DNA from: a virus
DNA: 29,086 nucleotides
Strand: one strand, 5' to 3'
IMG/VR virus record: IMGVR_UViG_3300022929_000138
Coordinates: 1 to 29,086 of that record
This document shows positions 26,187-29,086 of this stretch, piece after piece. The first letter of the stretch is position 1. The number at the start of each line of letters is the position of its first letter. Below the pieces are notes generated by a model. That model searched no databases. It worked only from the letters and a program-made list of their open reading frames with translations, and was not told the DNA's origin. The position numbers and the translations under genes were made by a program.

Positions 26187-26408
26187 TTAGGTTTCATCTT
26201 CTTCCGTATCTGTAACAATCGCATCATCCGTTAATGCGTCTTTAACTTTCTCGGTTAGTTGGATAGAAGAAGCTGTAAGAATATCAAGTTCCATAGTGGC
26301 TTCTTGAATCTTAGCTTGCACCCTACTTAATAGGACACAAGCTACTTGACCTTCTTGATCTAACTTATCAATGTCGTAGGTGACACCATCCATATTTAAA
26401 ACATTCAT
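26187..26408 (-). CDS. Small helical protein, DUF6447-like, 73 aa
   Basis: Begins MNVLNMDGVTYDIDKLDQEG and continues as one long helix (VACVLLSRVQAKIQEATMEL...), ending in an acidic tail. The opening 'I.GV.YD.D.L...' plus a single amphipathic helix recalls small phage proteins I remember as DUF6447, of unknown function. The ATG shares its A with the ssDNA-binding protein stop (TAATG), and its ribosome site GGAG is encoded by the last codons of that gene. It lies between ssDNA-binding protein and primase-helicase, so it may modulate one of these. That is inferred only from position. Confidence 0.65.
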   Translation of the reverse strand: MNVLNMDGVTYDIDKLDQEGQVACVLLSRVQAKIQEATMELDILTASSIQLTEKVKDALTDDAIVTDTEEDET

Positions 26409-26839
26409 TAAAATTCTCCTTCCATATCTGCGTCATCGAATGAATCAAACTCAGCACCATCTGGTGTGCCGACCTCGATTAAGTTTAGTACCTGCATAGC
26501 TTGGAAGTCCAAGCCCTTAAACAACTTACCTTTCCAGTTAGACTCCCATTCTTTGTACTGGACTTTAACACTTGAGCCATTACCAATCGCACAATCTAAC
26601 GGCTGTTTGTTTTTATCAACGAGCTTTGGAGCAGGGCGAACCATACCGTTAGGGCCATTGACCTTACGCTTAATAACAATAGCAGGGCCTTCGTCCATCT
26701 GCTTAATGGTGAAACCATCAGCTTGAAACTTCTCTGCTGTTGCATTATCTACAACTAGATTAACAGAATACACAGGCTCGAATGTAGTATTCGGAGTTGT
26801 TACACTTGCCCAGTATGCAGTACCTTCTAAAATTGCCAT
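26408..26839 (-). CDS. T7 gp2.5-like single-stranded DNA-binding protein, 143 aa
   Basis: Protects single-stranded DNA and coordinates polymerase and helicase. The sequence gives strands of an OB-fold: GTAYWASVTTPN near residue 6, PVYSVNLVVDNATAEKFQ, then SSVKVQYKEWESNWKGKLFKGL and AMQVLNLIEV. The tail is acidic and ends in an aromatic residue (FDSFDDADMEGEF, Phe143). An acidic tail with a terminal Phe is the hallmark of gp2.5, used to bind the other replication proteins. At 143 aa it is shorter than T7 gp2.5 (232 aa), as in many marine relatives. It is the first gene after a strong promoter (26882-26910) and has AGAGG 8 bases before the ATG, fitting high expression. Confidence 0.87.
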   Translation of the reverse strand: MAILEGTAYWASVTTPNTTFEPVYSVNLVVDNATAEKFQADGFTIKQMDEGPAIVIKRKVNGPNGMVRPAPKLVDKNKQPLDCAIGNGSSVKVQYKEWESNWKGKLFKGLDFQAMQVLNLIEVGTPDGAEFDSFDDADMEGEF

Positions 26840-26881: not shown

Positions 26882-26910
26882 AGTATATCATACTTCGGGT
26901 GTGATGTCAA
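26882..26910 (-). promoter_or_regulatory. Strong sigma70-like promoter for the replication genes
   Basis: Minus strand TTGACA (26910-26905), exactly 17 bases, then TATACT (26887-26882), preceded by TGA, so also an extended -10. It overlaps the stop codon of the lipoprotein gene and lies 43 bases upstream of the ssDNA-binding protein ATG. It should start transcription near 26875 and drive SSB, primase-helicase and polymerase. It is the best promoter match in the window. Confidence 0.8.
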
Positions 26911-27208
26911 GACTAACTTCCACACTTTCTTCGATTACTGGCGCAGTTTCCTCCACGACAACTGGCTCTGGTGCAACCTCTTCCACTGCGATAGATTCTA
27001 CCACAACAAGTTCTGGTGCAGGTGTTTCTACTTCAACTACAACAGGTTCTGGTGTGTTTAATACTACCAAGTTACCTGCCTTTGTAGTTACTTGTATTAC
27101 TTCTTCGATTGGTTTGTATGCAGGCTCTACAACAGTAGCCACTTCTTCTACTTCGTCAGTACCACAAGCTGCTAACGCCAATACAGGTAATAAAATTAAA
27201 TACTTCAT
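26888..27208 (-). CDS. Acidic Pro/Val/Glu-rich lipoprotein, 106 aa
   Basis: Residues 1-15 (MKYLILLPVLALAAC) are a lipoprotein signal with lipobox LAAC, so Cys15 should be lipidated and the mature protein (CGTDEVEEVATVVEPAYKPI...) anchored in a membrane facing the periplasm. The rest is low-complexity: repeated EPVVVE/APELVVVE/EVAPEPVVVEE blocks, strongly acidic, without cysteines or a fold I know. TGGAGAAA precedes the ATG. It is transcribed with MazG and ends inside the spacer of the SSB promoter. An early, surface-anchored extended protein could block superinfection or shield the envelope. It could also be an o-spanin-like protein, but it is far from the lysis genes. Function is unproven. 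Confidence 0.75.
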   Translation of the reverse strand: MKYLILLPVLALAACGTDEVEEVATVVEPAYKPIEEVIQVTTKAGNLVVLNTPEPVVVEVETPAPELVVVESIAVEEVAPEPVVVEETAPVIEESVEVSLDITPEV

Positions 27209-28032: not shown

Positions 28033-28152
28033 TTACTTCTCCTTATCTAAAGATTCAATACTATCATATACTTTGTTATACAGTGAACGAATAACATCAC
28101 AGCCAAAGTAACCCAGTCCTGCACCCACTACAAAAATAATAAACTCATACAT
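28033..28152 (-). CDS. Very small membrane protein, 39 aa
   Basis: Starts with MYEFIIFVVGAGLGYFGCDV, one membrane helix at the extreme N-terminus followed by a charged helix ending SLDKEK. The ATG at 28152 has GAGGAGAG about 6-7 bases upstream and overlaps the stop of the alanine-rich gene by 8 bases, in the same way the alanine-rich genes overlap each other. The stop lies just before the 98-aa gene, whose ribosome site AAGGAG is encoded by its last codons. No family is recognised. Confidence 0.6.
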   Translation of the reverse strand: MYEFIIFVVGAGLGYFGCDVIRSLYNKVYDSIESLDKEK

Positions 28153-28387
28153 CTTTTCTCTCCTCTATTAGTTCTTCGTATATTTTAACACATTTAATAG
28201 CATGTTGAAGATAAACATCATCATCAGCAGCAGCCCAAGCAGCCCAAGCAGCGCCAGCAGCATAAGCATTAGCATCATAAGCAGAATGATAACCTTCAGC
28301 AGAACGGCTATTAGCTTTAAGTTCTTCTTTAGTCACACTGTCTGGATCGTCCAGCCACTTCTTTACCAATTCGATATGCTTATCCAT
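28145..28387 (-). CDS. Alanine-rich tandem-family protein, copy 4 in transcription order, 80 aa
   Basis: N-terminal box MDKHIELVKKWLDDPDSVTK, then EELKAN, a shortened alanine-rich centre (NAYAAGAAWAAWAAADDDVY) and a C-terminal helix VKIYEELIEERKDV. Ends match the other family members and the centre is the shortest. It contains an unusual insertion (SRSAEGYHSAYD). The ATG at 28387 overlaps the upstream copy by 8 bases; its ribosome site is within the upstream gene's last codons. Predicted to be almost wholly helical and soluble. Function unknown. Confidence 0.75.
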   Translation of the reverse strand: MDKHIELVKKWLDDPDSVTKEELKANSRSAEGYHSAYDANAYAAGAAWAAWAAADDDVYLQHAIKCVKIYEELIEERKDV

Positions 28388-28652
28388 TGCCTTTATCCTC
28401 TGTTAATTCGTCATACCTCTTAACGCAGTTGGCAGTATATTCAGTATAAGCAGCAGCATTAGCGGCATCAGCAGCGGCATAAGCAGAGGCATCATCAGCG
28501 GCATCGGCAGCAGCACAAGCAGCGGCATAAGCCCAAGCAGCAGCAGGAGCAGCAGTAGCATAAGCAGCATCGGCGTTAGCTCTCAGCTCCGCTGTTGTCA
28601 CACTGCTTGGATCTTCTAACCATTTTTTGACAAGCCCGATATGTTTATTCAT
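28380..28652 (-). CDS. Alanine-rich tandem-family protein, copy 3, 90 aa
   Basis: MNKHIGLVKKWLEDPSSVTT opens the protein, followed by AELRANADAAYATAAPAAAW and a long alanine-rich stretch with Asp, Tyr and Asn at intervals, then CVKRYDELTEDKGNG. Similar proteins with 'VK.WL.D.DSV..EEL..N' and 'VK.YEEL' ends around an alanine-rich helix occur in other marine phages as far as I recall, always without known function. The pattern A-A-A-D-A-A-N resembles alanine-rich single helices such as type I antifreeze proteins, but threonine spacing is absent, so ice binding is not implied. It overlaps both neighbours by 8 bases and carries the AGAGGATAAAGG ribosome site at its 3' end. Confidence 0.75.
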   Translation of the reverse strand: MNKHIGLVKKWLEDPSSVTTAELRANADAAYATAAPAAAWAYAAACAAADAADDASAYAAADAANAAAYTEYTANCVKRYDELTEDKGNG

Positions 28653-28941
28653 TGCCTTTATCCTCTAGTAGTTCTTCGTATCTCTTAACGTGCTTGGCAG
28701 CAGAGTTGACAGCAGCATTAGCAGCATCAGCATAATAAGCAACAGCAGCATAAGCATTAGCATCATAAGCAGCAGCAGCATTAGCAGAATCAGCAGAAGC
28801 AAAATAAGCAACAGCAGCAAAAGCAGCATCATCATCAGTCCAAGCAGCCCAAGCAGTATCGGCGTTAGCTTTCAATTCTTCTGTTGTCACACTGTCTGGA
28901 TCGTCTAACCATCTTTTGACAAGCTCGATATGTTTATTCAT
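28645..28941 (-). CDS. Alanine-rich tandem-family protein, copy 2, 98 aa
   Basis: The longest complete copy. N-terminal box MNKHIELVKRWLDDPDSVTT, then EELKANADTAWAAWTDDDA, an alanine-rich region of about 50 residues with Tyr, Asn, Asp and Phe at intervals, and the C-terminal box HVKRYEELLEDKGNE. Predicted helical throughout and soluble, with no signal peptide. The central codons are mostly GCT, GCC or GCA mixed with TAT, GAT and AAT, so on the plus strand the DNA reads as runs of AGC/GCA triplets prone to slippage. Overlaps both neighbours by 8 bases. Confidence 0.75.
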   Translation of the reverse strand: MNKHIELVKRWLDDPDSVTTEELKANADTAWAAWTDDDAAFAAVAYFASADSANAAAAYDANAYAAVAYYADAANAAVNSAAKHVKRYEELLEDKGNE

Positions 28942-29086
28942 TGCCTCTCTCCTCTAGTAGTTCTTCATATTTCTTAACGTATCCAGCGACAATATCACTG
29001 CCATTCCAATCAGGGTTGGTAGCATTAGAAGAAACATAAGCATAGTAAGCAGCATTATAAGCATTATAATAAGCGGCACAATTAGC
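28934..29086 (-). CDS. Alanine-rich tandem-family protein, copy 1, C-terminal part only
   Basis: The frame is open from the window end. The visible 50 residues are ANCAAYYNAYNAAYYAYVSS, then NATNPDWNGSDIVAG and the family's C-terminal box YVKKYEELLEERGNE. The Tyr-rich centre and the DWNGSD stretch differ from the other copies, but the last 15 residues and the 8-base overlap with the next gene are the same. The start lies outside the window, so more copies may follow. Confidence 0.7.
   Translation of the reverse strand, partial: ANCAAYYNAYNAAYYAYVSSNATNPDWNGSDIVAGYVKKYEELLEERGNE

Follow-up and report, generated by a model that had tools for sequence, protein, structure and literature searches.

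What are the tandem small genes at the end of this viral DNA, and by what route are such genes gained, lost and changed? The DNA analyzed (the window, 29,086 nt) is an entire IMG/VR record, and on its minus strand at 28145-29086 three complete genes, of 98, 90 and 80 aa, lie head to tail with a fourth that the record end truncates. Because the window is the whole record, the array runs off its end, and the left end of the array lies beyond it. The products of the window copies are alike in their first 26 residues and last dozen, with centers that vary in length and residues, and the N-terminal box (N-box) profile of the family matched the complete copies at 1e-17 or better. Successive copies overlap stop to start by 8 nt (ATGAATAA, ATGGATAA), and the GAGGAG/GAGGAT ribosome site of each next copy sits in the last codons of the preceding gene (Table 1). 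Both points described in the initial annotation, near-constant ends around alanine-rich centers and last codons that carry the next ribosome site and start, were confirmed, and copies c to e recur with identical DNA in an independent contig, L004. The array is neither a product of chance nor an artefact of the window. Coupled translation, also proposed in that annotation, is suggested by the sequence anatomy, i.e. the stop/start overlaps and the upstream ribosome sites.

Table 1. Features of the array, its right edge and the anchor gene in the window.
Feature	Coordinates	Strand	Remark
Copy b, C-terminal 50 aa only (gene runs past record end)	28934..29086	-	full 87-aa allele in L004
Copy c, 98 aa, complete	28645..28941	-	
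Copy d, 90 aa, complete	28380..28652	-	
Copy e, 80 aa, complete; last copy of the array	28145..28387	-	
Joint b/c, GAGGAGAGAGGCAATG: ribosome site in last codons of b and start of c	28939..28954	-	
Joint c/d, GAGGATAAAGGCAATG	28650..28665	-	
Joint d/e, GAGGATAAAGGCAATG	28385..28400	-	
Right-edge joint GAGGAGAGAAAAGATG; same place as the edge of the array-free site in L178 (GAGGAAAGAGAAAATG)	28150..28165	-	
Following gene (MYEFIIFVVGAG..., 39 aa), its start shared over 8 nt with the end of copy e	28033..28152	-	
Gp2.5-like ssDNA binding/annealing protein (SSB), anchor gene for comparing relatives	26408..26839	-	phrog_112 E 8.8e-10

The locus was extended past position 29086 with L004 and L024, which brought the count to five copies and one small unrelated gene. 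Outside copy b, 6 SNPs in 10.2 kb separate L004 from the window. To the left, L004 adds the complete fourth copy, then 62 aa of a different kind of gene (MSKK...), and finally the larger part of a fifth copy. L024 overlaps L004 and reaches the left end of the array, where the fifth copy starts with GTG. Within copy b, the 150 nt common to the window and L004 contain 4 SNPs and a 15-nt in-frame indel, a difference that may be an assembly mix because it is located at the end of the window contig. All comparisons were made between metagenomic contigs, with no isolate among them. The DNA polymerase of the window is 48% identical to those of HTVC103P/104P/115P and its SSB 50-53% identical to those of HTVC103P-type pelagiphages, and on these identities the window phage is a distant relative of that type. 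Its G+C content (~39%) fits uncultured group IV, a more distant group of marine phages with 31.9-44.4% G+C (PMC8528129).

Among SSB relatives fetched out of viral contigs, L178 was found to have flanks 93% identical to L024 on the left and to L004 and the window on the right, with no array between them. The 93% identity starts at the right-edge joint of the window (39-aa gene), and the matches on the two sides have 12 nt, GAGGAAAGAGAA, in common. Where the array is present (the filled form), its first copy begins with GTG after GAGGAGAGAGAAGA at the left edge, and at the right edge GAGGAGAGAAAAG precedes the ATG of the next gene; the 1.4-kb array thus separates a ribosome site from its start codon and has a ribosome-site copy on either side. 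No array copy was found in any of 53 SSB-gene relatives with at least 1.6 kb upstream (L178 counted in, L177, a duplicate of L004, left out), so that gain in the window lineage, rather than loss in L178, the one clean empty site, would be the likelier direction.

Other relatives differed in copy number or content. L179 has flanks 96.7% identical and a different last copy, and L022 and L023, ~90% identical over 8 kb next to the array, have two and three copies, respectively, which are ~71% alike. The same gene was also found in different surroundings: L150 and L169 have 298 bp in common at 98% identity (the gene and 66 nt before it) and otherwise differ, and L151 and L163 have in common little beyond the gene and its ribosome site, their surroundings being unrelated. 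Copy number, centers and even presence therefore change much faster than the flanks, as expected of the diversifying cassette envisaged in the initial annotation; single, invariant copies in related genomes would have spoken against that idea, and the relatives did not have them. A copy in L005 (1732-1959; ATEVAYLGYVADAAT) matches the first copy of the L004 array at 94% identity over 107 nt, with another array position and a different second half, which suggests shuffling within copies.

The start of the next gene overlapped the gene end in 60 of 65 copies. For first copies, where the upstream genes lie outside the family, the 16 nt before the start were more similar to the 3' joint of that very gene than to the 3' joints of other loci (0.55 vs 0.42; 0 of 5000 shuffles). 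At alanine-rich-gene loci the pattern AAGGAG-N8-ATGA was counted 47 times, with the spacer CAAGGCGA in 14 of these, and a reversed control pattern was absent in 12 records. A fixed spacer is not required of a ribosome site, so convergence is less likely than common descent or exchange of the joint. Conservation of the joint is due in part to selection for translation, the joint being a ribosome site too; the identical 8-nt spacers argue against that alone.

An exact 19-nt joint, AAAGGAGCAAGGCGAATGA, occurred in 30 stretches of viral contigs. In L153 this joint or a close variant stands at six boundaries in a row between genes that, the alanine-rich ones excepted, are unrelated, and the products end in KEQGE or similar. 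Proteins around these joints and their close variants fell into 38 clusters, with upstream tails that were mostly KEQGE; dozens of unrelated genes end in this tail because they are joined by one 19-nt junction. The junction was seen in L153 (963-2431, minus strand), L157, L171, L262, L268 and L259-L279, often with no alanine-rich family nearby, and the joint is followed in L153 and L171 by a gene weakly matching NinB/Orf (E 0.0007 for L153), a gene of the lambda nin region. The joint common to many genes was seen in phages other than that of the window, whose own joint, GAGGAGAGARAAGATG, was found only at the array and its edge and not at boundaries between the other genes of this phage. Two irregular forms were also observed. 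In L157 (2598-2825) the first 12 codons of an alanine-rich gene are fused to another small gene, the usual form of which ends FFKLQPLKEQGE in L153; in L266 (minus strand, about 1094-1140) a joint is followed by a 9-residue stub, MNKHIKLVI*, apparently a decayed copy.

The extent of the family was assessed from its N-box. Degenerate patterns of this box gave 22 viral loci with one pattern and 44 with another, and a profile of the box, a search recommended at the outset, gave 88 copies in 55 loci (1-5 per array); some of these loci are parts of one contig, and about 50 viral contigs are represented. The family is spread over many phage types, and the recognized neighbors of its arrays are replication and nucleotide genes (T7-type RNA polymerase, primase-helicase, dUTPase, SSB). 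Scans of 61 members gave no convincing Pfam, NCBIfam, PHROGs or PADLOC family match and no PDB profile match, the best weak matches being phrog_38757 (6.7e-6, 6 members) and Pfam PF12445 (0.0019, 1 member); a defense-system library gave no meaningful match to the family. A few members match PHROG 38757, 18326 or 21347 (unknown function) weakly, partly over the N-box; the proteins of these PHROGs are longer (170-203 aa), and most members of the array family have no match to them. Searches by tblastn with different ends against 50,697 phage records, in which low-complexity masking hides the centers, returned no relative of the array proteins, HTVC103P-type pelagiphages included. In a genome collection of 84,980 bacterial and archaeal species a long N-box pattern had no match, and a shorter one matched 114 stretches, with no family member among the 80 listed. 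The literature, searched mostly outside subscription journals, held nothing on such alanine-rich phage arrays or joint cassettes. The arrays represent an unnamed, widespread family of alanine-rich phage proteins. In L012 (13341-14024) and L014 (1568-2254) an alanine-rich unit is fused to a phage domain (W[ND]GEGLPPVG..., phrog_7798/3483) that occurs with other N-termini in Salmonella and Pseudomonas phages.

Both ends of the protein are conserved as protein. Within arrays, pS and pN were 0.52 and 0.13 for the N-terminal box and 0.52 and 0.17 for the C-terminal box, and between loci they were 0.80 and 0.22 for the N-box; the ends are therefore kept by purifying selection, and the C-terminal box is doubly constrained because its codons contain the ribosome site of the next gene. 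Lack of such constraint had been named as a result that would undo the diversifying-array idea, which survives. The accompanying proposal that conserved ends drive recombination between copies is retained in altered form: the boxes are held by selection and not mainly by copy-to-copy conversion, and the array appears to enter and leave at the ribosome-site/start joint formed with the last codons rather than at the boxes as a whole.

The centers have the character of triplet-repeat DNA. Of 1378 alanine codons in the centers of 65 copies 88.5% were GCT, vs 39.7% in long ORFs of the same loci, and tyrosine, aspartate and asparagine codons likewise mostly ended in T (TAT, 90 vs 52; GAT, 92 vs 59). 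In the window, GCT made up 72/84 vs 335/623 (p 7e-9). Array alanine codons are nearly all GCT regardless of the codon usage of the phage (95/95 in L153, 62/62 in L147). When synonymous codons were shuffled with the protein held fixed, exact DNA repeats exceeded expectation (p<0.05) in 10 of 65 copies (3 expected), window copy c among them. Near-identical pairs differed by in-frame indels: one CTG triplet in L012/L014, and a 42-nt deletion with 4 aligned mismatches in L163/L151. The distance from box to box ranged from 34 to 112 residues, with no clear period of 3, 7 or 11 in center length. As had been proposed for these triplet-rich centers, slippage, or else unequal exchange within the center, is the simplest reading of the monopoly of codons of the NNT form and of the in-frame indels; the NNT bias could instead reflect codon selection.

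Taken at a probability of about 0.6, the preferred reading is that these genes are accessory cassettes which recombination at ribosome-site/start joints adds, removes and reshuffles, and that their centers change by triplet slippage and allele replacement. A cassette would be one small gene whose last codons contain a ribosome-binding site and run into the start codon of the gene behind it, whichever that is; nearly the same joint can therefore flank a cassette on both sides. Recombination from joint to joint would add, remove or exchange one or many cassettes with reading frames intact and a working start signal, probably by annealing of short homologies during replication. Presence and absence with edges at the joint is directly visible in the comparison of L178 with the filled form; the recombination route, its enzymes and its direction are inferred. 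The window encodes a Cas4-like exonuclease and an endonuclease VII besides its gp2.5-like annealing protein, which agree with an annealing route and prove nothing. Meanwhile the center, an imperfect GCT/GAT/TAT/AAT triplet repeat, lengthens or shortens in frame, presumably by slippage, and both protein ends are kept by selection. A wider version, tentative and at somewhat less than even odds, is a general cassette system of marine phages. Its recombination joint would be the ribosome-site/start overlap itself; small genes of any kind with a joint-coding tail at their end (e.g. KEQGE) could be inserted, lost or shuffled inside the operon with translation kept, and the alanine-rich genes would be a common, self-diversifying cargo.

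The arrays might also have grown by ordinary tandem duplication and divergence, with joints that are merely good ribosome sites and have no part in gain, loss or mobility. Copies of one array do resemble each other, the N-box DNA of neighboring copies is nearly identical in L008 and L166, and overlapping stop and start codons with an upstream ribosome site are common in phages. This account appears improbable in view of the array-free site with both edges at a joint, the same copy within unrelated flanks, and the identity between unrelated genes of spacers (CAAGGCGA) as well as ribosome sites. There is likewise a small chance that the cassette is selfish, a gene that persists since its joints permit insertion into operons, with no benefit to the phage: many unrelated phage types have the gene and nearly all relatives of the window phage are without it, and the L266 stub and the N-box fused to another gene in L157 resemble remnants. 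Against this stand the purifying selection on the N-terminal box and the lack of any family match suggesting a nuclease, integrase or transposase.

It is a separate matter whether the centers do anything. Neutral triplet slippage alone may grow them; function would then reside in the two ends, and neither the length nor the composition of a center would matter to it. The NNT codon monopoly, the in-frame indels and the wide range of box distances with no clear period all accord with this. It is nevertheless considered unlikely, since alanine residues show a weak preference for spacings of 3, 4 and 7, a pattern of amphipathic helices, and a 72-aa copy was predicted as a compact bundle of four helices (pLDDT 81.6, pTM 0.69; fair confidence) in which the center is helical. 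The center thus seems at least constrained to stay helical. A long coiled rod is not favored by the compact model of the 72-aa copy. For the 98-aa window copy the model was poor (pLDDT 63.8), and its structural matches carry no meaning. Foldseek against PDB and BFVD (best E 6.5 and 2.4) and VIA (best Z 8.1 and 5.1, to designed bundles, which is generic for helical models) returned no natural fold of note, an absence that proves nothing. With a median pI of 4.7 for the family, the product is predicted to be probably a small acidic helical-bundle protein. Its role may be to bind or block a host or rival factor in early infection, several variants being carried at once; this is a guess, and a doubtful one, drawn from the gene being accessory, variable, multi-copy and located beside replication and nucleotide genes. 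Mimicry of the N-terminal segment of host 2-oxoglutarate dehydrogenase E1, with an action on central metabolism, was considered because Pfam PF16078, whose DPxSV motif we take to resemble the array proteins, matched 6 of 61 members weakly (best E 0.057, below the curated cut-off). It is highly improbable: the match is far too weak for family assignment, no PDB profile matched, and DPxSV is probably a frequent turn between helices.

Exchange at gene boundaries is an old idea. In lambdoid phages, short conserved gene-boundary sequences have been proposed as sites of module exchange by homology (Clark et al. 2001; Susskind and Botstein 1978; both as cited in PMC3029335). The edges of the present array and cassettes also lie at gene boundaries marked by a short conserved sequence, and such a sequence borders exchanged modules both at the array-free site and at the 19-nt joint with its 38 clusters. 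Here, in contrast, one joint of 18-19 nt repeats at successive boundaries between unrelated genes, the same sequence encodes the tail KEQGE and provides the ribosome site/start, and comparison with an array-free relative places presence and absence at such a joint. Integron gene cassettes similarly form arrays of one-gene units gained or lost singly or together, whereas the joint here is a ribosome-site/start sequence of 12-20 nt and homologous annealing is the likely route. The changes seen differ from those of a diversity-generating retroelement in being in-frame repeats and allele differences, and no reverse transcriptase or template repeat was noticed by eye in the ORF list of the window. 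What would be new, as far as these sequences indicate, is that one coding tail combines ribosome site, start overlap and probable recombination joint, and that it carries self-diversifying genes. The join is visible, short, repeated and coding, and its edges are exposed by an array-free relative; therefore the old boundary-sequence idea becomes directly testable. The array points to a simple means by which phages could acquire, exchange and drop small genes with translation unbroken, and it offers a rule for spotting exchangeable accessory genes in uncultured phages, namely unrelated small proteins with a common C-terminal tail.

Another possibly slippage-prone gene lies elsewhere in the window (26888-27208, minus strand) and encodes a small putative lipoprotein with PVVVE/EPVVVE-type repeats.
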